In this document: one piece after another, positions 29,404-44,849 of the stretch
Layout of the letters: each line of letters begins with the position of its first letter
Numbering within the stretch: the first letter of the stretch is position 1
DNA from: Oceanicola sp. 22II-s10i
GTDB lineage: Bacteria > Pseudomonadota > Alphaproteobacteria > Rhodobacterales > Rhodobacteraceae
Reading direction: 5' to 3'
Length of the DNA stretch: 64,000 nucleotides
Assembly (NCBI RefSeq): GCF_002210105.1
Contig: NZ_AQQU01000003.1
Location: 1 to 64,000, forward strand
Program-made: the position numbers and the translations under genes
The notes under the pieces: model-generated
What the model was told of the DNA's origin: nothing
The model's input: only the letters and a program-made list of their open reading frames with translations
The model's database searches: none

Positions 29404-31347
29404 TCAGATCCTGCGGCCGATTTCGTGGCCCTGGTACATGACCTGAAGCAGGTCCCGCGGGGCCAGCGCGTCACCGATGACCGAGGTCGCATATCCCTCG
29501 GTGATCGCGGCGAGCGGGTTGTCGCGCGGCAGGCCAGGGCTGGACACGCAAACCGTATCGACGGACCGGATCCAGCGGTCTTCGTCCGAGCCGTCGGTGA
29601 ACCGCACATCCGTGCCGTTCCATTCAAGGATCCGCGCCAGTGTGTAGAACTTGACGCCCGCCTTCTTGAGCCGGTCGACGATCAGCATCTGGCTGTAGGA
29701 ATTGATTTCCCAGAACAGGCCCGCACCTGGCGACAGCACGCTGACGTCGTGACCGGCGGTCGCGAGCGTCTCGGCGGCCGACGCGGCGCGCCATGCGCCT
29801 TCGAAGTCCAGCAGGACCACGCGCTGCCCCGCATCGGCGGGCCGCCCGATCAGGTGCGCGGCATCCAGCACCGGGGCATCCAGCGAAATTTCAGTGGTCG
29901 GCGCGGCGCCGGTCGCGATCACGATATGGTCCGGCGCCAGGCTCTCGACCATTGCGCGGTCGGCCGTCACGCCGGTCCTGATCTGGACGCCGATGCGATC
30001 CAGCTGACGACGCTCGTAATCGACCAGCTTGCGCAGATCGGACCGGCCGGTGCCGCGTGCGCCCACCCGGAGGGCCCCGCCGATATCGCTGTCCTGTTCC
30101 CAGACATGCACGTCATGTCCCCGTGTGGCCGCGACGCGCGCGGCTTCCAGCCCAGCCGGACCGGCCCCGATGACAAGGACCTTCCGCCGGACCGCAGCGG
30201 TGCCGTAGTCGTCATCCGGCCATGACTTTTCCCGTCCCGAGGTGGGGTTCATCATGCAGCTGAGGGCCAGTCCCCGGTTCAGCTCGCCGATGCAGTAATT
30301 GCAGCTCACGCAGGGGCGAATTTCGTCGACACGGCCTTCCTGCGCTTTCCGCATGATCTGCGGGTCCGCGATATGCGCGCGTGTCATGCCGATCATCGAG
30401 ATCTTCGTCTCCGCCAGCACACGCTCGGCGATGTCGATGCTGGTCATCCGGCCGAGGCCCATGACCGGCACATCGGGGAACCGTTCCGCGACGGCGGTCG
30501 GAAGGTGCACGAACGGCGCATCGCCGTAGTTCATGTCGGCGACATGGTAGCCGATGCTGGGCGAGGTGTATTCGGCATGGGACACGTTGATGAAATCCAG
30601 ACGCGGGACCGCCCGGCGCGTGATCTCGACCATGTCCAGCGTTGCGTCCAGCCCCATGCCGCCGGGCACGAAGTCGTCGGCGCTGATCCGGATCCCGACG
30701 GCGAAGCCGGGGCCGACGGCCTCCTCCACGGCGGTCACGAGCTCGATCCCGAGGCGTGTGCGGTTCTCGAGCGATCCGCCGTATTCATCCGTCCGTTCGT
30801 TGCTGTTGAGCGACAGGAACTGGTGGACGAGGTGGCCATGGCCGAAATGCACCTCGATCCCGTCGAACCCGGCCCGTTCCAGCAGCAGCGCGCAGCGGAC
30901 GTAGTAGTCGGTCAGCTCCGCGATATCGCGTTTCTCCATCGCGTGCGGGACCCGGCCGAGCGCGTTCCAGCGTGTGGCAGAGGGGGCCCAGGCCACGCTG
31001 CCGGTGACGAGGTTGTCGTTGTGGCGGCCGGTATGCACAAGCTGCCCCATGATCCTTGTGCCGTGTTCGTGCACGGCCTCGGCGATGGCGCGGAAGGCGT
31101 CCTCGGACTCTTCCTTGTAGCCCACGATGCAGTTGGGCCGGCCGATGCTGGTCGGATGAACCCGGATGCCTTCCGTGATGATCAGGCCGACGCCGCCCTT
31201 GGCGCGTGCCCGGTGGAAGTCGACATGCCGCTGTGTCGGCATGAAATCGTGTCCGAAGTTCGTCGTGTGCGCAGACACGAAGATCCGGTTCTTCAGGTCC
31301 AGTGGCCCCAGCCGGACCTGCTGGAAGCATCTCTCAAAGTCAGCCAT
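29404..31347 (-). CDS. Old-Yellow-Enzyme-type Fe-S flavoprotein (2,4-dienoyl-CoA reductase/TMADH family)
   Basis: 647 residues. An N-terminal FMN TIM barrel (RLGPLDLKNRIFVSAHTTNF; YYVRCALLLERAGFDGIEVH) is followed by a four-cysteine cluster C346-x2-C349-x2-C352-x11-C364 for a 4Fe-4S centre, and a C-terminal FAD/NAD-binding part with VLVIGAGPAGLEAARVAATRG. This matches NADH:flavin oxidoreductases that reduce activated C=C bonds or demethylate amines. Last gene of the eight-gene leftward operon; overlaps osmC by 8 bases. In context it may reduce an unsaturated dicarboxylate or imide intermediate, which is inference. Confidence 0.92.
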   Translation of the reverse strand: MADFERCFQQVRLGPLDLKNRIFVSAHTTNFGHDFMPTQRHVDFHRARAKGGVGLIITEGIRVHPTSIGRPNCIVGYKEESEDAFRAIAEAVHEHGTRIMGQLVHTGRHNDNLVTGSVAWAPSATRWNALGRVPHAMEKRDIAELTDYYVRCALLLERAGFDGIEVHFGHGHLVHQFLSLNSNERTDEYGGSLENRTRLGIELVTAVEEAVGPGFAVGIRISADDFVPGGMGLDATLDMVEITRRAVPRLDFINVSHAEYTSPSIGYHVADMNYGDAPFVHLPTAVAERFPDVPVMGLGRMTSIDIAERVLAETKISMIGMTRAHIADPQIMRKAQEGRVDEIRPCVSCNYCIGELNRGLALSCMMNPTSGREKSWPDDDYGTAAVRRKVLVIGAGPAGLEAARVAATRGHDVHVWEQDSDIGGALRVGARGTGRSDLRKLVDYERRQLDRIGVQIRTGVTADRAMVESLAPDHIVIATGAAPTTEISLDAPVLDAAHLIGRPADAGQRVVLLDFEGAWRAASAAETLATAGHDVSVLSPGAGLFWEINSYSQMLIVDRLKKAGVKFYTLARILEWNGTDVRFTDGSDEDRWIRSVDTVCVSSPGLPRDNPLAAITEGYATSVIGDALAPRDLLQVMYQGHEIGRRI

Positions 31348-31747
31348 GGCTGCCCACCCCGACGGAAACGGTCGCCATCCCGTTTGCGAAGACCTTCGAG
31401 ACGGGGCAGCGGATATGCGCCTTGTCGGCCACGTCCTTCAGCGTCGCCGGATCACCGGACGTCGCCATGACGGTGAGCGTCGCCTTCGTGATCTCGTAGA
31501 CCCCGTCATTCACGGACAGGACGACCTCCACGTGGAATTCGGGATCGGTCGGCACCCCGGCAAGGTTGGCCTCATAGGCATAGGCCCCACCATAGCAGGC
31601 GGCCCAGGCCCCGGCCAAAAGTTCTTCGGGTGTCACGCCGGGCGTGGTCACGCCGGGGGGAATGACCTTGCTGTCGATGCTGCCGGTTTCGGTCCAGACG
31701 CGGCCTTTCCGGCCCCCGGTGGCGCGTGCGGTCGACGGATATTCCAT
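31340..31747 (-). CDS. OsmC/Ohr-family protein
   Basis: 135 residues from the ATG at 31747 (GAAGGGA upstream); an ATG further up lacks a ribosome site. Two redox-type cysteines are conserved (ELLAGAWAACYGGAYAYEAN and AHIRCPVSKVFANG), as in thiol peroxidases that reduce organic hydroperoxides in the cytosol. The order and overlap with the flavoprotein gene suggest it protects against, or uses, peroxides produced in this pathway. OsmC-fold proteins in catabolic operons can also act as thioester hydrolases. Confidence 0.88.
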   Translation of the reverse strand: MEYPSTARATGGRKGRVWTETGSIDSKVIPPGVTTPGVTPEELLAGAWAACYGGAYAYEANLAGVPTDPEFHVEVVLSVNDGVYEITKATLTVMATSGDPATLKDVADKAHIRCPVSKVFANGMATVSVGVGSHG

Positions 31748-31811
31748 TTCCAGGTCCCTTCTGTCTTCGGTGGGTGAGTGGCGGTGCGCGGTGCGCATCA
31801 TGCGAGGTTCT

Positions 31812-33197
31812 TCAGTAGGTCGGTGCCGGTTCCCGGCTGGAGAGCAGCGCGTGCGATCCCGAGACGAGGGAAACGACCGGTTGCAGCCCGTCGGTCTCCG
31901 GCAATGTCAGGATCCGGCGCCAGGCCGCTTCCGGCTCCGCAAGATACGGGCGGGTCAGGGCCAGGAACTTGCGCTCCAGATCGGCGGTGGTCATCGGGTT
32001 CGCGATGCTGCCCGTGGCGTTCTCGATGACGATCTCGCGCTCGGTCCCGTCGCTCAGCACGATCGCCGCGCGGCAGGATTGCTTGAGCATGGCGTCGTCC
32101 ACCACCAGCGTGACCTTGCGCCGGGCCGCGATGCTGTCGGGGCGGTTGGCCAGCTCGGTCGAGAATTCCGCCAGCCCGCCGTCACCTTCCAGCAGGCCGG
32201 CCGCGAAGCAGTGATAGGCGGAGAACTTGGATTGCGTCCCGTCCTTCGGCTCCTTGACCCCCATGACGGCCGGGACCGTATGGTTCACGCGGATCGTGAC
32301 CGACGCGAGGTCGTCGACGGTCAGCCCATCGTGCCTCAGCTGGCGTCCGACGTCGATGATCGGGTGACTGACGATCCCGCAGGCGTATGGCTTGAAGGCA
32401 TTTGCGTCCAGCTCCCACCCGGACCCGAGGCCATCGGCCACCGTTGCCCAGGACAGCGTCCCGGCGAATTCCGCTCCGACCCCATCGTCCGCCGCGCGCG
32501 GATCGACATCGGACAGCATCCCATCCCCGGCCATCTGCACGAGACGCAGCATATCCGCCGCCGCCTTTCCGGGATGCAGGGGCTTGGCCATCGAGCCGAG
32601 CTGTTCGGTATGCCCGGCGAGAGTCTTGAGCGCCATGGCGACGACTCGTGCGAGGTCATCCTGCGACAGTCCCGCCAGAAGCCCGCCCGCCAGCGCGCCG
32701 CCGATCCGACCGGCGGTCGAGGTCAGGTGCCATCCGCGATCGAAATGCGAGGACCCAAGGGACAGGCCGACGCGCGAAGCGATCTCGACCCCTGCGGCGA
32801 CGGCGGTGGCGAAATCCCTGCCGGACCTGCCGTTCAGGACGGCGACCGACAGGGCGACCGGCACGATGGGTGCGCCCGGATGCAGAACGGTGCTAAGATG
32901 GGTGTCGTCGAAATCCTCGACATGCATCGCGGTCCCGTGGACGAGGCAGGCGGAAACCGGGTCCAGCCGGGCCGCCCGGCCCAGCACCGGCAGGGTGCGT
33001 TCCTCGTCGGCGAAGGTGCCATGCGTTTCGAGCGTCTTCAGGATGATCGACACGGTTTCCGTATTGGTCCCGGCCACGCCGAGGCCGAGGGAATTGCCGA
33101 TTGTGTGCAGCGCGGCCATGCGCGTCGTTTCCGGCAGGTCATCCCATGCAAGGGAGGTGGCCCATTTCACCACGGTGGAAAAAGTCGTCTCAGACAT
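31812..33197 (-). CDS. MmgE/PrpD family protein, full length
   Basis: 461 residues from the ATG at 33197, which lies inside the end of the upstream gene (8-base overlap). The helical core (ATRMAALHTIGNSLGLGVAG-type region, HVEDFDDTHLSTVLHPGAPI, GWHLTSTAGRIGGALAGGLL) and the small lid domain (KFSAYHCFAAGLLEGDGGLA) are complete. Known members include 2-methylcitrate dehydratase, cis-aconitate decarboxylase and iminodisuccinate epimerase. It follows a half-length paralogue. The exact reaction cannot be told; lyase or epimerase chemistry on a substituted dicarboxylate fits the neighbours. Confidence 0.9.
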   Translation of the reverse strand: MSETTFSTVVKWATSLAWDDLPETTRMAALHTIGNSLGLGVAGTNTETVSIILKTLETHGTFADEERTLPVLGRAARLDPVSACLVHGTAMHVEDFDDTHLSTVLHPGAPIVPVALSVAVLNGRSGRDFATAVAAGVEIASRVGLSLGSSHFDRGWHLTSTAGRIGGALAGGLLAGLSQDDLARVVAMALKTLAGHTEQLGSMAKPLHPGKAAADMLRLVQMAGDGMLSDVDPRAADDGVGAEFAGTLSWATVADGLGSGWELDANAFKPYACGIVSHPIIDVGRQLRHDGLTVDDLASVTIRVNHTVPAVMGVKEPKDGTQSKFSAYHCFAAGLLEGDGGLAEFSTELANRPDSIAARRKVTLVVDDAMLKQSCRAAIVLSDGTEREIVIENATGSIANPMTTADLERKFLALTRPYLAEPEAAWRRILTLPETDGLQPVVSLVSGSHALLSSREPAPTY

Positions 33198-33999
33198 GCG
33201 CGTGCTCCCGTTCGAATGAGGCGGCCAGTTCGGGATGCAGATCGCGGAGCCTCCCGGTTGCGGTGGTCGCGGCCCCGGAGCGGGCGGCAGGGGACAACAC
33301 GGTTCCGGGCCGCAGGGCGAGGCCTGCCGTGATCGCAGCGGACTCGCCGCCGCCCAGTGACGCCCGCCAGCCGCGCGCACCTTCGAGGCCCTTGGGCGAG
33401 GCGGTGAAACCCTCGTGGGCAAGGCAAGCGGCGAGGGTGCCGTTGGCGCAGCACAATGCGACCATGAGGGGCATGGCTGCGCCCGTCCGATCCGGGCGCC
33501 GGGTGGCCAGTGTCATGCTCGACGCAATGCCGAAGGCGTTGCTCAGCCTCGTCGCGTCGGTGCCGAGCAGGAAGGCGACGCCGATCGCCATCGACATGGG
33601 AAGGACGTGACCGGGTTCCTCCACGGAGGTTGCCGGGACAACCTCTGCCAGCTGATCGGCGGCATGGGTCGCGATGTCGAGGGCGGCGATCACCTGATCC
33701 ATGGCTTTGTCATGGGCGAGCCCGACGGCGATCAGCGTGGCCGCATGCCCGATCTCGAACGCGGCACGCCGGGTGTCAGTGTCACGAACTGCTGCGGGAA
33801 CGCCCTGCATGGCGCGCGTCACGACGTGCTGCACCCGGTAGAGGTCCGACGGGTCATGGTAGCCGGTCGTCCCGTTGCCGATGGCTTGCGCTGCTGCGGA
33901 AAGACTTGTGCGCGCCTCGCGCGATCGCACCTCGTCCAGCGGTTTCGAAAACCGCTCAATCAATCCGGCGACGAAATCAGCCTGTTTCATCGAATTCAT
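33190..33999 (-). CDS. MmgE/PrpD family protein, short paralogue
   Basis: 269 residues from the ATG at 33999, which has GGAGGAG. Only the helical part of the family is present (DLYRVQHVVTRAMQGVPAAV; EEPGHVLPMSMAIGVAFLLG; AFGIASSMTLATRRPDRTGA); the lid domain is missing, yet the gene is intact with a good ribosome site and overlaps the full-length copy. It may form a heterodimer with that copy or serve as a regulator-like inactive subunit. A genuine truncation cannot be excluded, but no frameshift is seen. Confidence 0.85.
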   Translation of the reverse strand: MNSMKQADFVAGLIERFSKPLDEVRSREARTSLSAAAQAIGNGTTGYHDPSDLYRVQHVVTRAMQGVPAAVRDTDTRRAAFEIGHAATLIAVGLAHDKAMDQVIAALDIATHAADQLAEVVPATSVEEPGHVLPMSMAIGVAFLLGTDATRLSNAFGIASSMTLATRRPDRTGAAMPLMVALCCANGTLAACLAHEGFTASPKGLEGARGWRASLGGGESAAITAGLALRPGTVLSPAARSGAATTATGRLRDLHPELAASFEREHAHV

Positions 34000-34177: not shown

Positions 34178-35014
34178 TTACCATTCCGCCGTCGCCTTCA
34201 TCCCGACCGGCCCGCCGACACTGGCGGTCCAGAGCTCGGCCCGATCCCCGTCGGGTGTCGCGTTCAGCGTGAAATCGGCGGTGTCGAAGACCGGCGAAAG
34301 GCTGCGGAAGCTGAAGCGGCGGGGTGCGGAGCCGCGCAGTTCCTCGGCCAGTCGTATCAGCATGGTCGCCTGCATCGGACCCTGCACGATCAGGCCGGGG
34401 TAGTGTTCCTCCTCCCGGACGTAGGGCAGGTCGTAGTGGATGCGGTGCGAATTGAAGGTGACGGCGGAATACCGAAACAGCTGCGTCGCCGACGGCCGGA
34501 CCGTGCTCACATGCGCGCCCTGCGGGGCGGCGTCCTCTCCGCGCTGGCGGGCCGCGTTGGCGGGGGCCGTGGCGTCGCGGTAGACGATGTGCTGGACCTC
34601 GGTGATCCGGGTCTCACCCGCGACGGCCCAGTCATGTCCGACCGTGACGAAGCACAGCCTGCCCGAGCGGCCTTCCTTGACCTCGACGTTCTGGATGGTC
34701 GAAGTCCGTTCGACCAGATCGCCGACGCGTATCGGCGCGTGAAAGTCGAGACTGGCCGCGGCCCACATCCGGCGGGGCAGGGGGACCGGGGGCAGGAAGC
34801 CACCCCGCGCCGGATGACCGTCTTCGCCAAGGCCAGACGTCGGAACGATGGGCTGGGCGATACAGTAATGCGCGAGCAGGGGCGCGGGGGCGCCCGTGGC
34901 GGGTGCGGTGGCATCGTCGAACGTTGCATTGAACTGGGCGGCCAGATGCCCCGACATTTCGCCGGTCATCCGTTCCTGCCGCCCGATCCATGTCCTGAGA
35001 TGTGAAATGTCCAT
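34178..35014 (-). CDS. Hot-dog CoA hydratase (mesaconyl-C4/itaconyl-CoA hydratase-like)
   Basis: 278 residues. The N-terminal FAS1-like dehydratase hot dog (LRTWIGRQERMTGEMSGHLA; RRMWAAASLDFHAPIRVGD) and the C-terminal hot dog with FRYSAVTFNSHRIHYDLPYV match the mesaconyl-C4-CoA / itaconyl-CoA hydratase group. The following YPGLIVQGPMQATMLIRLAE has Gln where many relatives have His (VHGP). Such enzymes hydrate branched C5 CoA esters to citramalyl- or malyl-type CoA, which a CitE-like lyase (one is encoded at 44016) can cleave. Fourth gene of the operon. Confidence 0.87.
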   Translation of the reverse strand: MDISHLRTWIGRQERMTGEMSGHLAAQFNATFDDATAPATGAPAPLLAHYCIAQPIVPTSGLGEDGHPARGGFLPPVPLPRRMWAAASLDFHAPIRVGDLVERTSTIQNVEVKEGRSGRLCFVTVGHDWAVAGETRITEVQHIVYRDATAPANAARQRGEDAAPQGAHVSTVRPSATQLFRYSAVTFNSHRIHYDLPYVREEEHYPGLIVQGPMQATMLIRLAEELRGSAPRRFSFRSLSPVFDTADFTLNATPDGDRAELWTASVGGPVGMKATAEW

Positions 35015-35122
35015 GTGGTGCGTGCTCCGGTACCGGATTGGCGGGTGGCGCGGCCGCGTCTTGCCCGACGGGACCGCTGACAGGGGTGTTCGCGGTCCGA
35101 ACGATGTCGGACACGCGGTCTT

Positions 35123-36535
35123 TCAGGCGGGATCGAACGCCTTCGGCATCGCGCCTGCGATTGTCTCGTACGCCGCCGCCGCACGGATCAGGGCGGGCTC
35201 ATCGCATGGACGCGCGGCGAGCTGGATCGAGATGGGCAGCCCGTTGGACGCGAGACCGGACATCAGGGAGATCGCGGGCGCACCTGTCACGTTGAACGGC
35301 GTCCGGGCCTGCCGCGCATAAGTCCGGGCGGTGCCTGCCGGATCGTCGAAGCGTCCGGCCGGGTCCATCGAGGAGGCGCACAGGATGATGTCGTACTCGG
35401 CAAAGCACCGCGCCATCTGCTGCACCAGTTCCGTGCGGCGCATCTGCGCGCGCACGAGGTCCGCCGCGCCGACGAATGCGCCGACAAGCAGGCTCTCGCG
35501 CTGCGCCGCGCCATAGTCCTGCGGCTGATCCTTCAGGAAGTCCTGGTGAATCGCATAGGCGTCCGAATGCAGGATCACCCGGTTCACGGCGAAATATTCA
35601 TCCGCCGCAGCCAGTTGGTAGTCGTCCACGCGGGCGCCGGCGTTCGAGAAGAGTTCGGCCGCGCGATCCAGTCCCGCTGCAACCTCGGGGTCCGCGATCA
35701 CGTCCTGTTCGTGGAAATGGCGGACATAGGCGATGCGCAGACCCTCAGCGTCGGACGTGCCACCGGACAGGGTCGTCCAAGGCATCGTGACGCTCGACGG
35801 GTCGGCGGCGCTCGGATGCGCCAGAGCCTCGAGCGCGATCGCCGCGTCGCGGGTCGAGCGGGTCAGCAACCCGACCGTGTCGAGGCTGGGCGAGAGCGGG
35901 AACACCCCCTCGCGCGAAATGGCACCGTAGGTCGGTTTCAGCCCCACGATCCCGCAAGCGCTGGCGGGATGACGTGCCGAACCGCCGGTATCCGTTCCGA
36001 TGCCGAGGGGAAACATGCCCGCCGCGACCCCGGCCCCTGACCCCGAGGACGATCCGCCGGGGTGATGGTCGACGTTCCACGGGTTGCGGGCAGGCGGCGC
36101 CGGCAGGTCGAGCGAGGGCAGACCATTCGCGAATTCGTGCGTGGCCACCTTGCCGAGGATGATCGCGCCCTGTTCCCGCAGCGTCCGTGTGACGGATGCG
36201 TCGCTGGTGACGGGGTGATCCGGCATGATCCGGGATCCGCATCGTGTCGGCATGCCCGCGACGTCGATGATGTCCTTGATGCCGACCGGGATGCCATCCA
36301 GCCGGCCGCGCGGCGTGCCGGCGCGATAGGCGCGGTCCGAGGCGGCGGCCATGTCACGTGCGCCGCTGACATCGAGGTGGACGAACACCGAGAGGCGGCC
36401 GTCGGTCTCCTCGATGCGGCGCAGGCAGCTTTCCAGAACCTCGGTGGGCAGGAAGTCACCGGCGGCATAGCCGTCGAGCAGGGCCTCGATGCCCAAGGTC
36501 CAGAGCTCGGTGGAGGGCGAGGTCCGCGCGCTCAT
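35123..36535 (-). CDS. Amidase-signature family hydrolase
   Basis: 470 residues from the ATG at 36535 (ATGA overlap with the 58-residue gene). The Ser-cisSer-Lys triad is present: Lys87 in GIPVGIKDIIDVAGMPT, cis-Ser in PGGSSSGSGAG (about 160-169) and Ser186 in TDTGGSARHPAS. Substrate-binding and C-terminal regions are complete. It hydrolyses an amide to acid and ammonia in the cytosol. Coming after a CE4/imidase-like gene, it would suit the second step, opening a half-amide from a cyclic imide or ureide. The small coupled partner recalls GatC/AtzG subunits of related amidases. Confidence 0.92.
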   Translation of the reverse strand: MSARTSPSTELWTLGIEALLDGYAAGDFLPTEVLESCLRRIEETDGRLSVFVHLDVSGARDMAAASDRAYRAGTPRGRLDGIPVGIKDIIDVAGMPTRCGSRIMPDHPVTSDASVTRTLREQGAIILGKVATHEFANGLPSLDLPAPPARNPWNVDHHPGGSSSGSGAGVAAGMFPLGIGTDTGGSARHPASACGIVGLKPTYGAISREGVFPLSPSLDTVGLLTRSTRDAAIALEALAHPSAADPSSVTMPWTTLSGGTSDAEGLRIAYVRHFHEQDVIADPEVAAGLDRAAELFSNAGARVDDYQLAAADEYFAVNRVILHSDAYAIHQDFLKDQPQDYGAAQRESLLVGAFVGAADLVRAQMRRTELVQQMARCFAEYDIILCASSMDPAGRFDDPAGTARTYARQARTPFNVTGAPAISLMSGLASNGLPISIQLAARPCDEPALIRAAAAYETIAGAMPKAFDPA

Positions 36536-36708
36536 TTCATCACCGTCATCGGGGGCCACGGCTCGCCGAAGCGACCGCCCTCGAGCCTGATCCTGGAACC
36601 GGCATCGCCGGCGCGCCTGGCCGCCGCGATGACGCTCTGCGGATCGGTTTCCACCGCGCGGTCCAGACCGAGACGCCGCGCGACCTGCAGGACATCCTCG
36701 TCTGTCAT
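36532..36708 (-). CDS. 58-residue coupled small protein between CE4 and amidase genes
   Basis: Begins MTDEDVLQVARRLGLDRAVE and ends GRFGEPWPPMTVMK. Both ends are ATGA overlaps: its start with the deacetylase stop, its stop with the amidase start. That arrangement, together with a protein-like composition (a charged N-terminal helix, then a Gly/Pro tail), supports a real gene. By analogy with GatC and AtzG, small subunits of amidase-signature enzymes, it may stabilise or gate the amidase; sequence similarity to those is not evident to me, so this is inference. Confidence 0.7.
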   Translation of the reverse strand: MTDEDVLQVARRLGLDRAVETDPQSVIAAARRAGDAGSRIRLEGGRFGEPWPPMTVMK

Positions 36709-37604
36709 TTGACGCTCGCGAGTGTCCTGCCCTGCGGGGCCGGGACAGCGTTTTCAAACCAGTCGATCAGCTGCCTGCCCTGAACGAAGGCCACGTCGTC
36801 ATGGCTCATGAGCAGGTCCAGCATGTCGCAGAATTCGCCGAAGCGATGCGGCACGCCCATCAGGTGCGGGTGAAGCCCGAGGGACAGCACCTTCGGACCG
36901 GTCTCGGGTTCGGCATCGAAACATTCGAGCGTCTTCTTCAGCCGCTTGGCGAATTCGCCCGTTGCGAAGTTCGCGATCACGTAGAGCGGGCTGTCGTTGA
37001 GTTCGAGGTTGTACGGCATGTTGATCATCGGGCCGTTGCGGGTGTCCATCCAGCACGGCTGATCGTCCAGGACCCAGTCGAGGATATAGCGGATGCCGAG
37101 TTCGGACAGGTAATCCGGGGTGTCGTAACTTTCGCCCAGGCCCGGCCCGAGCCAGCCGAGAACCTGTTCGCCCGAGAATTTGGACAGCTTATCCAATGCG
37201 GCGGCGATCACGGCACGTTCGTCGTCTTCGGTCTGGACCGCCTTCTGGTACATCCCGTGGCCGATGAATTCCCAGCCGAGGTCGCGGACCCGTGTCGCGA
37301 TGCTTTCATAGACCTCGACGACGTCGGCGTTGATGCTGCAGCCTGCCGTCAGCCCGCGGGATTCTATCGCTTTGAACATCCGGGGCATCCCCACGCGCAG
37401 ACCGTATTCCGCCCATGCGAAGTTCGGCACGTCGGGGACACTCTTCTGGCCCTGCGGGGGCGTGCTGATGCCGCGCGGCATCGGATGATCGAACCGCCAG
37501 TGCTCAAGGTTCACCACCAGATGCACCAGGATGCGCTTCCCTTCGAACAGTGGCAGGGCAGGGGCGTCGGTGGAAGCTCGGAAGGGAATTCTCGGGTTAG
37601 ACAA
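36705..37604 (-). CDS. Polysaccharide-deacetylase-fold hydrolase (PuuE/cyclic-imidase-like)
   Basis: 299 residues from a TTG at 37604 with GGAG upstream. It belongs to the NodB/CE4 fold but of the PuuE subtype: GISTPPQGQKSVPDVPNFAW, GLRVGMPRMFKAIESRGL, INADVVEVYESIATRVRDLG, WEFIGHGMYQKAV and LSLGLHPHLMGVPHR. That subtype includes allantoinase PuuE and bacterial cyclic imide hydrolase rather than sugar deacetylases. No signal peptide, so it acts in the cytosol. First gene of the leftward operon, opposite LysR. A ring-opening amidohydrolase is the likeliest role. Confidence 0.85.
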   Translation of the reverse strand: MSNPRIPFRASTDAPALPLFEGKRILVHLVVNLEHWRFDHPMPRGISTPPQGQKSVPDVPNFAWAEYGLRVGMPRMFKAIESRGLTAGCSINADVVEVYESIATRVRDLGWEFIGHGMYQKAVQTEDDERAVIAAALDKLSKFSGEQVLGWLGPGLGESYDTPDYLSELGIRYILDWVLDDQPCWMDTRNGPMINMPYNLELNDSPLYVIANFATGEFAKRLKKTLECFDAEPETGPKVLSLGLHPHLMGVPHRFGEFCDMLDLLMSHDDVAFVQGRQLIDWFENAVPAPQGRTLASVK

Positions 37605-37766
37605 GTGGTTCTCCGTTACTCAGATCGGCCCCCGAAGCGAAGCCATCGCGCACCCCGCGCGATGGCGCGGCGTGCTCAAAGGTTGTGCGCGCTAGTGCCC
37701 GCAACGAAAAAAGTTCGACAATGTCGGCGCTGAGCAAGGGCAGCCTCTGGACTTGATAGATCCCTG

Positions 37767-37785
37767 GAGTATTGCGAAAATACTC
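37767..37785. promoter_or_regulatory. LysR-type operator (perfect T-N11-A dyad)
   Basis: GAGTATT-GCGAA-AATACTC, a perfect 7-base inverted repeat with T at 37770 and A at 37782 exactly 11 bases apart. It lies between the divergent deacetylase (start 37604) and lysR (start 37894) genes, 109 bases from the lysR start: the classic position for LysR autoregulation and activation of the divergent operon. Confidence 0.8.
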
Positions 37786-37893
37786 GCCTCTGCTCTTCCG
37801 CGACTTCTCGACCTCCGTTGTGTAGCAGGCGAAAGCGGCGCTGAAACAGACTTCGTTCGCACTATCAGCTATGCCGTCCAGAGGGGTCGTCAC

Positions 37894-38820
37894 TTGGAAC
37901 TCAAGCAACTCACCTACTTCTGCGAGGTCGCGGCGGCGGGAAGCTTTTCCAAGGCCGCCGTGCAGCTTTCCATCGTTCAGCCCGCGCTGAGCCGCCAGAT
38001 TTCGCGGCTGGAGGAAGAGGTCGGGGTCAAGCTGTTCTACCGGAACGGACGCGGAGTCGAACCGACCCCCGAAGGCCTGCAGTTGCTGGACACGGCGCAC
38101 AGGGTCCTGGGCGACCTTCAACAGCTCCAGGCGTCGCTGGCCGGGACGCAGAAGGAGGTGATGGGCCGGGTGTCGCTGGCGATGCCGCCATCCGTCGACG
38201 GCCTGATCGGCGCCGCCGTGGTCGAACGGGTCCGGACCGAACTGCCGCGCGTGCAGCTTCACATCAGCGAAGGCTTTTCCGGTCATGTCGCCGAATGGCT
38301 GATGACGGGGCGCGTCGATCTCGGCGTCGTTCATCAGGCGGGCGCCCAGCCCTCGATGCAGGCCGAGGTCATCATCGACGAACCCCTGCACCTGGTCGGC
38401 CGCCCCTCCGAAGAATACGGGCTGGTCGCGGAGCAGGGCGGAACCTTTCCCGTCTCGGGGCTTGCAAGGCTGCCCCTGCTGCAGCACGGAGAGAACCACG
38501 GTTTGCGCAGGCTGACCGACCGGATGATGTCCGAGGCGGGGCTGTCCTTCAAAGCGGATATCGAAGTCGACGCGATCGCCACCATCCGAAAGCTTCTCAG
38601 GGTGGGCAAATACTACGGCGTCCTGCCCGTGGGCTATATGGAGTATGAACTGTCCCGCGGTGACGTTTTCGCCTGGCGGCTGGTCGAGCCCGGTGCAAAG
38701 AACGTGATGACCCTGGCGATGTCCCCGAACCGTCCGTTCACCGTCGCGGTGGAAGGTGTGCGCAAGATCATACTGGCGGAAGCCAGGCGCGTTCAGAAAG
38801 CCGGCGTCGCGATCACCTGA
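37894..38820 (+). CDS. LysR-family transcription regulator
   Basis: 308 residues from a TTG at 37894 with GAGGGG upstream; the start gives the standard N-terminus LELKQLTYFCEVAAAGSFSK. Helix-turn-helix AAVQLSIVQPALSRQISRLE (about 21-40), linker helix, and an effector domain of the CbbR/CatM-like fold (VDLGVVHQAGAQPSMQAEVI; GVLPVGYMEYELSRGDVFAW). It presumably senses a pathway intermediate and drives both the leftward catabolic operon and the rightward transport operon. Confidence 0.95.
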   Translation: MELKQLTYFCEVAAAGSFSKAAVQLSIVQPALSRQISRLEEEVGVKLFYRNGRGVEPTPEGLQLLDTAHRVLGDLQQLQASLAGTQKEVMGRVSLAMPPSVDGLIGAAVVERVRTELPRVQLHISEGFSGHVAEWLMTGRVDLGVVHQAGAQPSMQAEVIIDEPLHLVGRPSEEYGLVAEQGGTFPVSGLARLPLLQHGENHGLRRLTDRMMSEAGLSFKADIEVDAIATIRKLLRVGKYYGVLPVGYMEYELSRGDVFAWRLVEPGAKNVMTLAMSPNRPFTVAVEGVRKIILAEARRVQKAGVAIT

Positions 38821-38941
38821 AGCGAAGGCCGCGACAGACAGGCACCTACGGGGAGGCGGAGCCAGCACGCCCCGGCATAGCTGCTAATTTCTTTGCAACA
38901 TAGATGGGGCCGTACTTCATGCGGTAGGTTCGTGGAATGCT

Positions 38942-39838
38942 ATGTCCCAGGCAAGATACATGACATCCGCCCATGAGAACCTACTGAGCGTAAACGCATA
39001 CTTGGCACCCGCCGAGCAAGACCCTTCCAGCTTTGCCAAACAGGCGGCGCGTGCAGGGTTCGGCGGGGTCGGCTGGACCCAGGCGATGCTGCAGGCGGTC
39101 GGCGCGAGCGAGCTCAGGAAGATCTCGGATGGCGAGGGTCTTGTCGTGACCTCTCTCAACAGCGCTGGCTACTTCACCTGGCCGGACGCCGCGCGACAGC
39201 AGCAGCAGGACCGCGTAAACCTCCAGCTGATCGACGATGCGGCGGTGCTCGGTGCCCGCCAGCTCGTTGTGATAACCGGCGGGATCGACGGCGGTTTGGA
39301 TGCCGCGCCCTCCCGGCAGAGCATGCGCGATGCGCGGGCGCGCGTGGAGATCGGGTTGACGGCCCTCGACCGGCGCGCGGCCGCCTCGGACGTCCGGCTG
39401 GGGCTGGAGCCGATACACCCGGCCGATCATCTGCGGAAGGGGTGCATCAACTCGATAGATGATGCCCTGAGCCTGTGCCGCGCGCTCAAGGTCACGGATC
39501 TGGTCATCGACACGTTCCACTCGGCCTGGGACCGTGCGCTGCTTGACCTTCGGTCGATCGCGGGCGATCGCCTCGGCTGCATCCAGGTCTGCAACTGGTT
39601 CGAACCTTCGCCCGAGGCAAAGCCGTCACGGTGTCTGCCCGACGATGGCCGTCTGGACCTGGCGGCGATTACCGGCGGGCTGCTCTCGGGTGGATACGCC
39701 GGCCCCATCGAGTTCGAGATGTTCGACATTCACCGTCGGGGCCGATCGGTGGAGTCGCTGCTCGATGCAGCACATCGCCAGATCTCGGCGCTTCTTGAAC
39801 AATCAGACACGACGGAGGCTGCACGTGCCGGCGCCTAG
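38942..39838 (+). CDS. Sugar-phosphate isomerase/epimerase-like TIM barrel
   Basis: 298 residues; ATG at 38942, with an ATG six codons later as an alternative. The AP-endonuclease-2 type barrel is recognisable: SFAKQAARAGFGGVGWTQAM, VVTSLNSAGYFTW, VVITGGIDGGL, RLGLEPIHPADHLRKGCINS, LVIDTFHSAWD, IEFEMFDIHRRG, with metal-binding Glu, Asp, His and Glu residues in the expected strands. Relatives isomerise or epimerise hydroxy acids and sugars. Overlaps the first permease gene by 14 bases, so it belongs to the transport operon. Confidence 0.85.
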   Translation: MSQARYMTSAHENLLSVNAYLAPAEQDPSSFAKQAARAGFGGVGWTQAMLQAVGASELRKISDGEGLVVTSLNSAGYFTWPDAARQQQQDRVNLQLIDDAAVLGARQLVVITGGIDGGLDAAPSRQSMRDARARVEIGLTALDRRAAASDVRLGLEPIHPADHLRKGCINSIDDALSLCRALKVTDLVIDTFHSAWDRALLDLRSIAGDRLGCIQVCNWFEPSPEAKPSRCLPDDGRLDLAAITGGLLSGGYAGPIEFEMFDIHRRGRSVESLLDAAHRQISALLEQSDTTEAARAGA

Positions 39839-40715
39839 AACCCCAAAGCCGTTTCCCGGAATCCGCCCTTTCGGCAATCCGTTGCTGCTCATGGCGCCTG
39901 GCCTTGTCTTCCTGCTCTGCATCGGGCTCGCCCCGGTCATCCTGACGGTCGTGCTGTCCTTCTGGAGGTCCTCGATTTTCGGGACGACCCCCGACTTCCA
40001 GTTCGGCAATTACGCGCGGATACTGGCGGAGCCGGTCTACTGGCAGCTGCTCGTCCATACGCTCAGGGTGGCGCTCGTGACGACGCTCGCCTGCCTCGTC
40101 ATCGGCTATCCGCTGGCATGGTTCCTGTCGACCCGGCCGAACCGGACCAAGGTGATCTGGCTTATCGCGATCTTCGTCCCGTTCTGGATCAGCTACGTCG
40201 TCCGCACGTTCGCATGGCTGCCGATCCTCGGGGTCAACGGCCTCATCAACTCGACACTGATCCGGATCGGGGTGATAGACGCGCCGCTCGACTGGCTGCT
40301 CTACACCTCCGGAACGACCTACCTCGGGCTGGTCTACGTCTACATCCTGTTCATGACATTGCCGATCTACCTGTCGCTGCAACGGCTGGATCCGCTGGTC
40401 ATCTCGGCGGCGGCCGACCTGGGGGCGCGGCCCAGTTCCATCCTGCGCCGGGTCATCCTGCCGCTCACGCTGCCCGGTGTCCTGTCCGGTTCGCTCATGG
40501 TCTTCCTGCTGTCGATCTCGGCCTACGTGACGCCCCGTCTGCTGGGCGGTCCGTCCGGGGTGATGTTCGGCACAATCGTCGCCGACCAGTTCCTGACCTC
40601 GAACAACTGGGCCTTCGGCGCCGCGCTCGCCACCAGCCTCATGCTGGTGATCATCCTGGTGCTTTCCCTCATGGCCATGATCCCGCCGGTTCGTCGCGCC
40701 ATGCTGAGCAATTGA
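39825..40715 (+). CDS. ABC transporter permease (PotB type)
   Basis: 296 residues from a GTG with GGAGG, inside the end of the isomerase gene. Six membrane helices (LLLMAPGLVFLLCIGLAPVI; VALVTTLACLVIGYPLAWFL; LIAIFVPFWISYVVRTFAWL) and the EAA-like loop LVISAAADLGARPSSILRRV (about 190-209), which contacts the ATPase. The organisation of the set (permease-permease-receptor-ATPase) is that of polyamine/opine/phosphonate-type importers. Confidence 0.95.
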   Translation: MPAPRTPKPFPGIRPFGNPLLLMAPGLVFLLCIGLAPVILTVVLSFWRSSIFGTTPDFQFGNYARILAEPVYWQLLVHTLRVALVTTLACLVIGYPLAWFLSTRPNRTKVIWLIAIFVPFWISYVVRTFAWLPILGVNGLINSTLIRIGVIDAPLDWLLYTSGTTYLGLVYVYILFMTLPIYLSLQRLDPLVISAAADLGARPSSILRRVILPLTLPGVLSGSLMVFLLSISAYVTPRLLGGPSGVMFGTIVADQFLTSNNWAFGAALATSLMLVIILVLSLMAMIPPVRRAMLSN

Positions 40716-40722
40716 GGCTGCC

Positions 40723-41565
40723 ATGTCCGTCACAGATACACATTCCGGTCGTCAGGCCATGAGCGAGGCGAGCCCCCGGATCCGGGTCCCCTACGCCAAC
40801 CTGAAGCGGCTGCTGACCGTCTACGTCGCCGTCCTGCTCTTCGTTCTCTACCTGCCGCTCGGCGTGGTGGCGCTGCTGTCCTTCTCCGAGACCGGGTCCA
40901 TCAGCTTTCCGATGGGCGAGCCGACGGTCCGCTGGTACGGCGAGGTCGCGACGAACAACACCCTGCTGGCGTCTCTCGGGCGCAGTCTGCTGATCGGGTC
41001 GCTGTCGGCCACCATCGCGACGCTGATCGCCCTGTTGCTGGGCCTTGCCTTCCGGCACGACACCAAGCTGAAGCCCTACGCGCTCGGCCTCATATTGCTT
41101 CCCCTGCTTCTGCCTGGCGTTGTCGGCGGCGCGGTGCTGTTCGTCTTCTTCGGCCTGCTCGGCGTCAAGAACGGGCTCTGGACGACCGTCCTGCCGGCGC
41201 ACATCGTCTATGTCCTGCCGTTCGCCTTCCTCACGCTGTCGCCGCGCCTCAAGGGTTTCAACCGGACGATTGAGGAAGCCGCGGTGGATCTCGGCGCGCG
41301 GCCCGCGATGGTCTTCACCCGCGTGGTGTGGCCGATCGTCAAGCCGGCGGTCTTCGCCACCTCGCTCTTCGCCTTCACGCTCTCCTTCGACGAATTCATT
41401 CGCACGCTCTTCGTGACCGGCTTCGACCGGACCGTGCCGGTGCTCTTCTGGGTCACCGTGACCGAGCAGGGTGCGCCTTATCTTCCGGCGATGGCAGTCA
41501 TCATCATGCTGATCTCGATCGCTGCCTCCGCCGTCGCCTTCCTGCTGGACAGCAAGAAGAAATGA
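40723..41565 (+). CDS. ABC transporter permease (PotC type)
   Basis: 280 residues. Six membrane helices (YVAVLLFVLYLPLGVVALLS; LGLILLPLLLPGVVGGAVLF; AVIIMLISIAASAVAFLL) and the EAA loop NRTIEEAAVDLGARPAMVFT. Second permease of the heterodimer, starting seven bases after the first. Together with the receptor and ATPase genes it makes a complete importer. Confidence 0.95.
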   Translation: MSVTDTHSGRQAMSEASPRIRVPYANLKRLLTVYVAVLLFVLYLPLGVVALLSFSETGSISFPMGEPTVRWYGEVATNNTLLASLGRSLLIGSLSATIATLIALLLGLAFRHDTKLKPYALGLILLPLLLPGVVGGAVLFVFFGLLGVKNGLWTTVLPAHIVYVLPFAFLTLSPRLKGFNRTIEEAAVDLGARPAMVFTRVVWPIVKPAVFATSLFAFTLSFDEFIRTLFVTGFDRTVPVLFWVTVTEQGAPYLPAMAVIIMLISIAASAVAFLLDSKKK

Positions 41566-41609
41566 CCACGCTGAACCAAGTATCCCCACTCAAAGTGAAA
41601 GGTAATGCC

Positions 41610-42692
41610 ATGAAGTCCTTCAACCTAGATCGTCGCCAGTTCCTCGCCGGGTCGGCAGGGCTCGTGGCAACCTCCATGGCCGCGCCCGCCGGGGTCCTGG
41701 CGCAGAGCCAGTCGATATCTGCACTGATGCCCGGCGTGCTGCTGCCGGAGAGCCTTCGCGGCCCGGCCGAAGCCGCGACCGGGGCAGCGATCGAGAACCT
41801 GCCCTACGTGTCACCGACCGACACGGTCGCAAAGCTCCTCGCGCCGGGGGCGCAGGGCCGGTACGACCTGATCAACAACATGATGAACTTCGTGACCGAG
41901 CCCCTGATGGCCGCCGATGCCCTGCAACCGCTCGACCTGTCCAAGGTCCCGAACTGGGATCAGCTGTCGCCCTACTGGCAGTCCCAGGCGGTGATGAAGG
42001 ATGGCGAAGTCTACATGATCCCCTGCATGTGGGCCTACGACAGCGTGCTCTACAACAAGGACTTCATCCCCGAGGATGACGAAGTCACCCAGAGCTGGGG
42101 TGTCATGTTCGACGACCGCTACGCCGGCCGGATCGCGCCGCGCGACGACGCCTACCAGATGATCACCCTGACGGCGCTTCACCTCGGCGTCGAGGAGCCC
42201 GCCACGATGTCCCGGTCGGACATCAAGGAAATCCAGGCCTTCCTGATTTCGAAGAAGGCCAATTTCCGGACGCTCTGGAGCAGCTTCGGCGAAGCCGTCA
42301 ACCTGATGTCGAGCCAGGAAGTCTGGGCCATGGTCGGCTGGATGCCGATGCGGCTTGCGCTGCAGAAGCAGGGCATGAACGTCACCAACAACTGGCCGTC
42401 GGAAGGTCTGATGACGTTCCAGAACGGGCTCTTCATCCCCAAGGGGTCGCAGAAGACCGACCTCGCACACGCGGCCGCCAACTTCTTCATCTCGCAGGAA
42501 TATGCCAGCGAACTGGCCAAGCTGATGGATTACGGCGTCACGAACGAGGCCGTGATCAACGGGTTCTCGCAGGAAACCATCGACCGCGTCGGCTATGATA
42601 TCTTCGACCGTGGTGTCAAAACCTATCCCTACACCTGGCCGGCCGAGATGGATGCATGGATCGAAGCCTGGAACAGCTTCAAAGTCGCATGA
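41610..42692 (+). CDS. ABC transporter substrate-binding protein
   Basis: 360 residues from the ATG at 41610 (AAAGG upstream). A Tat-type signal (LDRRQFLAGSAGLVATSMAA, cleavage after VLA) precedes a type 2 periplasmic-binding fold of the spermidine/putrescine class (ESLRGPAEAATGAAIENLPY; IPCMWAYDSVLYNKDFIPED; NFFISQEYASELAKLMDYGV). Tat export is uncommon but known for receptors. The ligand may be a cation or a neutral imide or amide; not predictable. Confidence 0.93.
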   Translation: MKSFNLDRRQFLAGSAGLVATSMAAPAGVLAQSQSISALMPGVLLPESLRGPAEAATGAAIENLPYVSPTDTVAKLLAPGAQGRYDLINNMMNFVTEPLMAADALQPLDLSKVPNWDQLSPYWQSQAVMKDGEVYMIPCMWAYDSVLYNKDFIPEDDEVTQSWGVMFDDRYAGRIAPRDDAYQMITLTALHLGVEEPATMSRSDIKEIQAFLISKKANFRTLWSSFGEAVNLMSSQEVWAMVGWMPMRLALQKQGMNVTNNWPSEGLMTFQNGLFIPKGSQKTDLAHAAANFFISQEYASELAKLMDYGVTNEAVINGFSQETIDRVGYDIFDRGVKTYPYTWPAEMDAWIEAWNSFKVA

Positions 42693-43834
42693 CAATGTTT
42701 GACCAAGCACAGACCGAAGTCATGAACGACGCCAAGGGGGCTTCCGTGCAAACGGAGGCCTACCTCGAGATCCGCGATGTCGCCAAGCTGTTCGGCGACA
42801 CCGTCGCGCTTGAACGTGTGAACCTCACCATCCGAAAGGGCGAGTTCTTTTCGCTCCTCGGCCCGTCCGGTTGCGGCAAGACTACGTTGATGCGGATGAT
42901 CGGCGGCTTCGAAGCGCCGTCATCCGGTGATATCCGCATCGACGGGTCCAGCGTGGTGCATCTCGCGCCGCATTCGCGGCCGACGAACATGGTGTTCCAG
43001 AGCCTGGCCCTGTTCCCGCACCTCAATGTGCGCGAGAACATCGCGTTCGGACTGCGGATCGCGGGCCTGTCGAAGAAGGAGATGCGCGACAAGATCGCGT
43101 CCGTGCTGTCCGTGATCCGTCTCGAAGACTTTGCGGACCGCGAAGTCTCGGCCCTGTCGGGCGGACAACAGCAGCGGGTCGCCATCGCGCGGGCGCTGGT
43201 GAACGAACCCAAGGTGCTCCTGCTCGACGAACCGCTGTCGGCACTGGATTCGAAGTTGCGGGAGGAGATGCAGGAGGAACTTCGGCGCATCCAGAAGCAC
43301 GTCGGGTCGACCTTCGTTTTCGTCACGCACGACCAGGCCGAGGCCATGTCGATGTCCGACCGCATCGCCGTCATCAATGACGGGCGTCTGCAGCAGATCG
43401 GGACCCCCGAGGAGCTCTATGCCAAGCCCCGAAACCGGTTTGTCGCGCACTTCATCGGCAACTCGACCCTGTTCGACGGCGTGGTGGAAAACGGGACCGC
43501 TGGGCCCGTCCTCCGGTCGGGCGATCTCGAACTCTCGTGCATGCCGCCTGAAGGCGTATCCATGCCGTTCAAGGCGACCGGTGCGCTCAGGTTCGAATCC
43601 GTGTCGGTGTTGCCCGAAGCCGCTGGAAAAGGACGTCTCGCGACAGTCATCTCGCGCAAGTTCCACGGCGCGTTCACGCGGGTCAGGTGCGACATGGACG
43701 GGTGCGAGGTCGCGGCCGACGTGAAGCCGACCGGGATGGCCATCGAGCCGGGAAGCAAGGTTCGGCTGGCCTGGGAACCTGACGCTCTGCGTATTCTTCC
43801 GACTGTCAACACGATCCCGGACAGCAATCGCTGA
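42689..43834 (+). CDS. ABC transporter ATP-binding protein (PotA type)
   Basis: 381 residues; its ATG overlaps the receptor stop (ATGA), with another ATG two codons on. Walker A GPSGCGKTT (about 69-77), signature LSGGQQQRVAIARAL, Walker B VLLLDEPLSALD and the H-loop FVTHDQAEAMSMSDRI are intact. A C-terminal TOBE-like domain follows (RFESVSVLPEAAGKGRLATV; RKFHGAFTRVRCDMDG). It powers the importer. Confidence 0.96.
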   Translation: MTMFDQAQTEVMNDAKGASVQTEAYLEIRDVAKLFGDTVALERVNLTIRKGEFFSLLGPSGCGKTTLMRMIGGFEAPSSGDIRIDGSSVVHLAPHSRPTNMVFQSLALFPHLNVRENIAFGLRIAGLSKKEMRDKIASVLSVIRLEDFADREVSALSGGQQQRVAIARALVNEPKVLLLDEPLSALDSKLREEMQEELRRIQKHVGSTFVFVTHDQAEAMSMSDRIAVINDGRLQQIGTPEELYAKPRNRFVAHFIGNSTLFDGVVENGTAGPVLRSGDLELSCMPPEGVSMPFKATGALRFESVSVLPEAAGKGRLATVISRKFHGAFTRVRCDMDGCEVAADVKPTGMAIEPGSKVRLAWEPDALRILPTVNTIPDSNR

Positions 43835-44015
43835 TCCGTTCTGGCGATCGGCACGCGCGGGCCATCTGGTCTTCGCGGCTGAGAGGCAACACACACCTCG
43901 GGCCGGTCAGCGCGCAGGAAGCACGCGCGCTGTCTCGCAACGCGCTGCGCCATGAGCGCTCCGACGATGGAGTCCGCCTTCGCGTGGTGCAATCGGCTTT
44001 GGAGACCCGTGCAGC

Positions 44016-44849
44016 ATGAACGTGACCAAGACGCCCAGATCCTGGCTCTTCGTCCCCGGCCATTCGCGCCGGATGATGGACAAGGCGCTTGGCTCCGGCG
44101 CCGACGTTTTGATCCTGGATCTCGAGGATGCCGTGGCACCGGAGGCCAAGGCAGATGCCCGCGCCACCGTTGCGGAATTCCTCCAAGAGGTCCCGACCGT
44201 GCCCTGCTATGTCCGGGTCAACGCGTTGACCTCCGGCATGACCGGTGCGGATCTGAAAGCAATCGGGTCCCATGCCGCCGGGTTCGTTGTGCCCAAATGC
44301 GAAAGTACTGGTGATCTGGACAGGTTCGCGGATCACACGGGCGGCGCTCCGGTGCTCGCCATTGCCCCCGAGACGGTCCGCGCCGTGCGGGCGCTGTTGA
44401 CGCAGGACTGGTCTCATCCGACGCTGACGGGCCTTGCCTGGGGCGCAGAGGATCTGGCGGCTGACCTGGGCGCTGTCACCAAGCGGGGGCCCGACGGCAG
44501 ATACCTGTCCCCGTTTGCCATGGCGCGGGATGCCATGCTCTTCGCCGCGAAGGCAGCCGGCGTGGCAGCCGTCGACACCGTCTATGTCGATACCGCAGAC
44601 ACCGACGGGCTTCTGGCCGAAGCAACCGCGTCAGAAAGCATCGGCTTTACCGCCAAGATGGCCATCCACCCACGTCAGGTGCCGCCGATCCACGCGGCTT
44701 TCACACCGTCACCCGCCCGTGTCGACTGGGCCCTGAAGGTCGTCGCGGCGCTTCGGGACGCCGGGGGAGGCGTCGCGGTCGTCGAAGGACAAATGGTGGA
44801 CCGACCGCATCTGCGACAGGCCGAGGCGATCCTGGCGCGCGGTCACTGA
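44016..44849 (+). CDS. CitE/HpcH-family CoA lyase-like protein
   Basis: 277 residues. A TIM-barrel lyase of the citrate-lyase-beta/malyl-CoA/citramalyl-CoA lyase group: PRSWLFVPGHSRRMMDKALG, ADVLILDLEDAVAPEAKADA (metal-binding Glu/Asp), GFVVPKCEST, LAWGAEDLAADLGAVTKRGP and AIHPRQVPPIHAAFTPS are present. In this locus it would cleave the CoA ester made by the hydratase at 34178 to acetyl-CoA or glyoxylate/pyruvate units. It lies 181 bases after the ATPase gene on the same strand. Confidence 0.9.
   Translation: MNVTKTPRSWLFVPGHSRRMMDKALGSGADVLILDLEDAVAPEAKADARATVAEFLQEVPTVPCYVRVNALTSGMTGADLKAIGSHAAGFVVPKCESTGDLDRFADHTGGAPVLAIAPETVRAVRALLTQDWSHPTLTGLAWGAEDLAADLGAVTKRGPDGRYLSPFAMARDAMLFAAKAAGVAAVDTVYVDTADTDGLLAEATASESIGFTAKMAIHPRQVPPIHAAFTPSPARVDWALKVVAALRDAGGGVAVVEGQMVDRPHLRQAEAILARGH

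Follow-up and report, generated by a model that had tools for sequence, protein, structure and literature searches.

A gene cluster of Oceanicola sp. 22II-s10i that probably connects the opening of a cyclic imide to enzymes of the methylsuccinate/itaconate pathway

Two described systems come closest to the gene cluster analyzed here. One is the Ict-Mcd-Msi-Ich-Ccl cluster of Pseudomonas and Cupriavidus, of which Ict, Mcd and Msi were characterised enzymologically and Ich and Ccl were reviewed (PMC12290011). The other is a fungal set known from A. nidulans, composed of HxnT (alkene reductase), HxnW (dehydrogenase), HxnM (cyclic imidase) and HxnN (amidase) (PMC9304392). In a stretch of 64,000 nucleotides from Oceanicola sp. 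22II-s10i (positions 1 to 64,000 of contig NZ_AQQU01000003.1, here called the window), a cluster at 29404-44849 combines genes related to both. This cluster probably opens a small cyclic imide and feeds a branched acid to enzymes of the methylsuccinate/itaconate pathway. The more specific reading, a LysR-controlled catabolic cluster with a 2-alkyl- or 2,3-dialkyl-succinimide or -maleimide as most likely substrate and the route given below, was drawn from sequence comparisons and is proposed tentatively, with a chance that we put somewhat below even.

Three proteins of the window have homologues in the Pseudomonas/Cupriavidus cluster, namely the hydratase, the lyase of CitE type and the long PrpD. 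Some related loci also have linked Mcd- and Ict-type genes, which in this genome are encoded in trans. In contrast to that cluster (PMC12290011), the window contains neither transferase nor dehydrogenase and adds an imide opener, an amidase, an OYE-type protein and an importer; its PrpD lacks the catalytic Tyr, and identities to the P. aeruginosa proteins are about 30-45%. The fungal route likewise has, acting in sequence, an alkene reductase, a cyclic imidase related to PuuE and an amidase. However, HxnM was compared with HpPgdA and a P. putida imidase, whereas the window protein is nearest to PuuE among solved structures, and the product given for the fungal route is 2-hydroxyglutarate and not a CoA ester (PMC9304392). 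With PuuE allantoinase (3cl6) the window protein has fold and distant homology in common, but clade, gene neighbours and presumably substrate differ.

The contig that holds the window (C23) is 373,541 bases long and belongs to a genome of 5.1 Mb in 39 contigs; the cluster consists of two divergent units. On the minus strand, one unit spans 37604 to 29404, with the PuuE-like gene first and the OYE-type gene last; on the plus strand, the other spans ~37885 to 44849 and is bounded by the LysR and CitE-like genes. The amidase gene, followed by the MaoC gene and both PrpD genes, forms a single minus-strand run with intergenic gaps below 200 bases. All genes named for the two units in a first-pass annotation were found, with families backed by profile matches (Pfam, NCBIfam). 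Its list was incomplete in that the LysR-type regulator between the units (37885-38820, plus strand, start codon approximate; PF00126, PF03466) was missing, and one of its two MmgE/PrpD proteins turned out to be a degenerate half-protein of 269 aa. An open reading frame on the minus strand at 37597-38868 is antisense to the LysR gene.

The candidate imide ring opener is a PuuE/imidase-like hydrolase (36705-37604, minus strand). No Pfam match was obtained at 0.001, and the sole NCBIfam match, allantoinase PuuE (TIGR03212), scored 88.9 bits against a cut-off of 424.6, which places the protein outside the allantoinase family. In the predicted structure (pLDDT 85.6) the nearest solved fold is 3cl6 PuuE (TM 0.80, E 1.2e-17, 25% identity), and as modelled the protein has the PuuE/NodB fold. 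HxxxH is the metal motif of CE4 metal-dependent deacetylases. The PuuE-like protein does not have it: the second position of the motif is Gln120, a residue shared by all 40 aligned sequences. PuuE itself was described as a non-metal-dependent enzyme (PMC10967932). A tree was calculated from 86 PuuE-like proteins, comprising 34 clade members sampled from the fetched loci and controls of 12, 20 and 20 proteins. The clade containing the window protein forms one branch (support 100/100) apart from the allantoinase-like proteins, with a long branch in between. Within it the window protein groups with those of loci L055, L056, L058 and L059 ('Rhizobiales', Martelella), with the Roseomonas locus L060 as sister. 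Plasmid records annotate members of this clade as polysaccharide deacetylases. The amidase-signature enzyme (35123-36535, minus strand; PF01425, 3.4e-98, 330 bits) contains K87 and two Ser-containing motifs and is a candidate half-amide hydrolase. In L055-L061, amidase genes 51-55% identical to it are found near PuuE, and LysR genes 41-49% identical to that of the window adjoin PuuE.

By sequence, the hydratase, the lyase and the long PrpD protein are homologues of Ich, Ccl and Msi. The MaoC/FAS1-DH hydratase (34178-35014, minus strand), of the itaconyl-CoA/mesaconyl-C4-CoA hydratase type, matches the solved itaconyl-CoA hydratase 8huc/8khg at E ~3e-64 and is 57% identical to an Antarctobacter Ich-type protein and 44-45% to P. 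aeruginosa Ich. Its full-length homology and the retained FN(S/A/G)HRIHYD motif place it among the Ich proteins as judged from sequence, and its nearest plasmid matches come from Paracoccus and roseobacters. The CitE-like (HpcH/HpaI) lyase (44016-44849, plus strand), a candidate citramalyl-CoA-type lyase, reached 178.5 bits with the (S)-citramalyl-CoA lyase RipC profile (NF038242), below the cut-off of 375, and thus was not assigned to RipC/Ccl. This cut-off was passed by no gene in 14 control genomes, a scoring that did not include P. aeruginosa Ccl. The lyase is 38% identical to the latter and retains the Arg and acidic positions, in an alignment judged by eye. The full-length MmgE/PrpD enzyme (31812-33197, minus strand), a candidate for a substituted 1,4-dicarboxylate, has iminodisuccinate epimerase as closest solved structure by sequence (1.3e-32) and is 30% identical to P. 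aeruginosa Msi. Catalytic positions H88, E91, H102, Y148, H152, K202 and K266 of Msi correspond to H, D, H, F, H, K and K, and on this comparison the protein was not classed as Msi. The shorter protein (33190-33999, minus strand), a degenerate N-terminal-domain protein that may be a partner or a relic, matches PF03972 only, at profile positions 99-240 of 244, and keeps none of the seven catalytic positions, although at such divergence the alignment itself is uncertain. As a conserved partner it was discarded, since besides its own copy only one weak match was found among 385 genomes of the class.

To place the cluster among its relatives, the genome_contigs collection was scanned with an alignment of eight PuuE-like proteins, giving 475 stretches with 398 relatives, the best 80 of which were kept. 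By their titles these loci belong to Alphaproteobacteria and Burkholderiales, many being metagenome-assembled genomes of similar habitats, and they are neither an independent nor a full sample. The 52 control loci carry PuuE-like genes of more distant relationship, 12 of them at 36-42% identity, 20 at 29-37% and 20 of the allantoinase-like kind. Markers were counted with one threshold each in loci of at least 14 kb only (54 of the 80; 51 of the 52 controls). Amidase genes were present in 45/54 clade loci compared to 5/51 controls, CaiB CoA-transferase genes in 42/54 compared to 1/51, and PrpD genes in 15/54 compared to 2/51. SDR genes (47/54), enoyl-CoA hydratase genes (ECH, 35/54) and acyl-CoA dehydrogenase genes (ACAD, 25/54) were detected in none of the 51 controls. 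The linkage of the imide module thus recurs across Alphaproteobacteria and Burkholderiales beyond chance, as judged by the neighbourhood controls.

By eye, the commonest order is LysR - amidase - CaiB - enoyl-CoA hydratase - SsuA/TauA-like ABC importer - PuuE - SDR. Some loci extend further, with an acyl-CoA dehydrogenase followed either by MaoC (and rarely CitE) or by the pair ECH and PrpD. An Azospirillum plasmid record has this order with public annotation, and a Variovorax plasmid record a variant with PrpD and without SDR. Loci L040-L044, which belong to the window's own family, were tallied separately, while L054, truncated at a contig end, was excluded from that tally; among these five, CaiB, ACAD and MaoC were found in 5/5, PrpD in 4/5, ECH and SDR in 3/5 each and CitE in 2/5. 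The SDR of the relatives gave no match at 1e-30 in the window's own genome, which does not establish its absence there. Another recurrent group near the PuuE module comprises a flavin hydroxylase of the PnpA/HspB type, a Bug-type binding protein and an AMDase/EutA-like protein (L072, L073, L087, L090, L093, L101, L117, L121 and others), the hydroxylase matching PnpA at 4.7e-65 and HspB (6-hydroxy-3-succinoylpyridine 3-monooxygenase) at 1.6e-59. This trio suggests that the module, where accompanied by it, includes a hydroxylation or an alkylmaleate isomerase.

Most markers were taken from the clade or the window, a bias toward the clade, and therefore an outside reference was used for the key marker. 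This was a P. aeruginosa record with the cluster of PMC12290011, the genes of which were matched to PA0878-PA0883 by order and annotation against the legend of Fig. 1. With a limit of at least 55% identity to methylsuccinyl-C4-CoA dehydrogenase, a Mcd-type gene 66-75% identical to P. aeruginosa Mcd was detected in 32 of the 80 loci (30 of these at 70-75%) and in none of the 52 controls, where the best match was 35%; other acyl-CoA dehydrogenases match Mcd at ~30%. With six further loci of the window's own family added, the count was 38 of 89 loci (L041, L042 and L054 at 81-82%, L040, L043 and L044 at 58-59%), while the window, L035 and L036 had none. A C-terminal segment, ETRLYQVAPISTNLI, is common to three Mcd-type references and the L102 protein. 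In L041, L042 and L054, homologues of Ict (64-65%), Mcd, Ich (45-48%) and Ccl (45-46%) stand beside PuuE. Four plasmid loci (L189, L190, L237, L238; roseobacter, Variovorax, Paraburkholderia) contain a transferase, an Ich-type hydratase and a lyase together with ETF-type genes, three of them with a dehydrogenase in the Mcd position. In L190 a shortened transferase gene adjoins a transposase and no dehydrogenase is in view.

Lower-pathway genes were also found elsewhere in the genome of strain 22II-s10i. On C1, at ~337-340 kb, a Mcd-Ict-Ich set is 66%, 68% and 52% identical to Antarctobacter genes, the Ict-type gene (68% to a roseobacter Ict-type gene) standing between the Mcd- and Ich-type genes. 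Mcd-type genes at 76% were further found on C6 and C10. The latter two (C6:1-1528 and C10:1-1529) are 95% identical and followed by different neighbours, which argues for paralogous lower-pathway clusters in the genome. In the order of the window a Mcd-type gene is present in 74/292 genomes and in 7/7 of those with the PuuE clade, recognised by identity (p = 5e-5); six of these seven carry Mcd in the same locus, and the p-value therefore largely repeats the locus evidence. Among 25 sampled genomes of the 80-locus set, 19 have Mcd, two in the locus itself (L075, L107) and 17 of the remaining 23 elsewhere. The genomes without it are those of L056-L059 and L061 (Martelella or 'Rhizobiales') and of L118, a 1.9-Mb draft.

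Sequence comparison shows the gene content, the family relations and the recurring linkage. From these we infer a substrate and a sequence of reactions, including the one assigned to the OYE-type protein, while any part played by the PrpD, OsmC and TIM barrel proteins is likewise conjectural. The importer would take up the cyclic imide, and in the case of a maleimide the Fe-S OYE-type flavoprotein may reduce the C=C bond of the ring. The PuuE-like hydrolase would open the imide to the half-amide, from which the amidase would release ammonia and a branched dicarboxylate with a C4 backbone (methylsuccinate, citraconate or a close analogue), possibly adjusted by the intact PrpD. A CoA-transferase encoded elsewhere in the genome would lead to the unsaturated CoA ester, for the saturated acid also via a methylsuccinyl-CoA dehydrogenase encoded elsewhere. 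The MaoC/Ich-type hydratase would then form a citramalyl-CoA-type ester, which the CitE-like lyase would split into a 2-oxoacid and an acyl-CoA. An unsaturated acid would need no Mcd step, matching the absence of Mcd from the cluster.

The known substrates of MmgE/PrpD enzymes have a common 1,4-dicarboxylate backbone (PMC12290011), and the CoA esters handled by Mcd, Ich and Ccl are methylsuccinyl-, mesaconyl-/itaconyl- and citramalyl-CoA; therefore, a five-membered imide is favoured. The OYE YqjM converts 2-methylmaleimide to (R)-2-methylsuccinimide (PMC9825001), and the characterised Ict prefers (R)-methylsuccinate (PMC12290011). By analogy the stereochemistry would fit, yet the flavoprotein of the window is from a different OYE group. 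The first-pass annotation had proposed that a methyl- or alkyl-substituted maleimide/succinimide-type compound undergoes ring opening and deamidation, followed by hydration of a CoA ester and C-C cleavage. This route, with an alkyl-substituted C4-dicarboxylate, gained support from the amidase, CaiB and Mcd-type genes that are frequent in PuuE-clade loci and from the Ich-, Ccl-, Ict- or PrpD-type genes of some of them, but lost some through the lack of CitE enrichment and through the nearest relatives, most of which have no Mcd or Ich.

Several observations weigh against the imide-to-methylsuccinate route. The window cluster contains no Mcd or Ict homologue, and the earlier remark that a CoA-transferase is missing holds for the window, although related loci and, in trans, the same genome supply one. 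It likewise does not contain the five-gene set Ict, Mcd, Msi, Ich and Ccl, as only Ich-, Ccl- and PrpD-type genes are present. In the long PrpD, Phe at the position of Tyr148 makes a one-base reaction more likely than racemisation. The CaiB proteins of the main group are 31-36% identical to Ict, and the acid handled in those loci may therefore differ. CitE was not enriched (2/54 clade loci, 2/51 controls) and MaoC was found in only 6/54 clade loci (0/51 controls), which argues that the module does not regularly include the C-C lyase and has the Ich-type hydratase only occasionally. No amidase was detected at the limit used in L040-L044 (0/5), and this speaks against a fixed pair of PuuE and amidase. 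The OYE, OsmC and TIM barrel genes occurred in 0, 1 and 0 of the 80 loci (OYE at 1e-40), and among eight MaoC plasmid neighbourhoods read, MaoC stands alone in L192 and with a different set of acyl-CoA genes in L239. MmgE/PrpD plasmid neighbourhoods (two of 12 read) were of mixed content and weighed neither way. Finally, five of the six sampled genomes of the nearest PuuE relatives (L056-L061) have no Mcd-type gene, and four of the six no Ich-type gene at 1e-20, the other two having one. The ring-opening half can therefore exist without the lower route, and release of nitrogen alone may be the older use, with the lower route of the window as a possible addition.

The same data bear on the explanation that survives best besides the proposed route, namely that two independent functions stand side by side: a nitrogen-scavenging set of PuuE, amidase and importer, and a separate itaconate/mesaconate-type set of MaoC, PrpD and CitE. 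L055-L059 and L061 have PuuE, amidase, LysR, importer and SDR without a match to CaiB, ECH, MaoC or CitE, the exceptions to this pattern being a PrpD in L057 and a distant acyl-CoA dehydrogenase in L061, and the genomes lacking Mcd and Ich as well as the distribution of CitE point in the same direction. However, the MaoC and PrpD genes of the window follow the amidase gene in the close-spaced run on one strand, and Mcd-type genes are linked repeatedly in other subclades of PuuE as well; we regard two separate functions as unlikely, though worth serious consideration.

Somewhat less likely still is a six-membered imide, in which a glutarimide or piperidinedione derived from a (hydroxy)pyridine would be opened and the product enter a glutarate-like path, as in fungal nicotinate degradation, for which the HxnT/W/M/N set offers a precedent (PMC9304392). 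The PnpA/HspB-like hydroxylase and the AMDase/EutA-like gene are each present in 17/54 loci, and the hydroxylase would fit a pyridine-type substrate, a further point against the five-membered imide. In addition, the Azospirillum CaiB scored highest in NCBIfam with succinate-glutarate CoA-transferase (336 bits, cut-off 750), and for the L102 dehydrogenase the family ranked second was glutaryl-CoA dehydrogenase (216 bits, cut-off 470). In contrast, of the 38 loci with the linked dehydrogenase, 35 have a protein 66-82% identical to a characterised methylsuccinyl-CoA dehydrogenase and three have one at 58-59%, and the hydroxylase is absent from the five own-family loci and was not seen in the window. 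An allantoin or hydantoin role, with the PuuE-like enzyme as an allantoinase of a variant pathway, is suggested by the nearest predicted fold but was ruled out as highly improbable by the score far below the family cut-off, the separate clade with its long branch and the gene neighbours, among which are CoA-ester enzymes that have no known place in allantoin breakdown.

If the five-membered imide route is correct, a tightly linked imide-opening module would supply such enzymes with acid from a second source, and a function would be given to a clade annotated as polysaccharide deacetylases. It would also suggest how bacteria use maleimides, which are named among chlorophyll and haem degradation products (PMC7318184). 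The scheme in that source names methyl-, methylethyl- and methylvinylmaleimide and haematinic acid. Occurrences of maleimides and haematinic acid in senescent leaves and lake sediments are cited there, but the study itself detected no maleimides (PMC7318184). We consider it an unlikely but conceivable idea that the PuuE-clade module is the bacterial entry route for maleimides and related lactams from chlorophyll, bilin and haem decay, with methylmaleimide, ethylmethylmaleimide and haematinic acid as candidate compounds, and that methylsuccinate-type acids arise in the environment from these compounds, a source not recognised so far. No published link from imides to methylsuccinate was found in the open-access PMC library, which does not show its absence from print.

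The Fe-S OYE-type flavoprotein (29404-31347, minus strand; PF00724 and Pyr_redox), a candidate ene-reductase for a maleimide or an enoyl-CoA, contains a CxxCxxC...C motif and scored 555.8 bits with TIGR03997 (cut-off 793). Its PDB matches are 6qkg (NCR, which we take to be 2-naphthoyl-CoA reductase), 2,4-dienoyl-CoA reductase and histamine and trimethylamine dehydrogenases, and by sequence it resembles the group of NCR, 2,4-dienoyl-CoA reductase and histamine dehydrogenase. A split homologue lies ~10 kb from the L130 PuuE gene, and a plasmid search gave one distant match. The OsmC/Ohr-like protein (31340-31801, minus strand; PF02566, 5.3e-13), with two cysteines (Cys69 and Cys132), probably has a peripheral role. 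On the plus strand an AP_endonuc_2/sugar-isomerase-like TIM barrel (38942-39838; PF01261, 8.6e-24; PDB 3qc0/3ju2 at ~2e-26) is followed by a PotABCD-type ABC importer (39825-43834), composed of two permeases (39825-40715, 40723-41565), a binding protein (41610-42692) and an ATPase (42689-43834). The binding protein matches PotD/PotF below the NCBIfam cut-off, and the permeases and ATPase were recognised, without a profile, from their translations and from ordered tblastn matches in L040, L043 and L044, where the homologous importer adjoins PuuE.

Beside the cluster, at 26253-29208, a Lrp-family regulator is divergent from an AceE-like homodimeric 2-oxoacid dehydrogenase E1 (TIGR00759, 177 bits, cut-off 860). 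This pair resembles what we take to be the 2-oxobutyrate dehydrogenase/Lrp pair of methionine degradation, and the position of a 2-oxoacid dehydrogenase next to a cluster thought to yield a 2-oxoacid may not be due to chance. Type II secretion genes occupy ~17438-25038, with GspD and GspL above their cut-offs and GspE just below.

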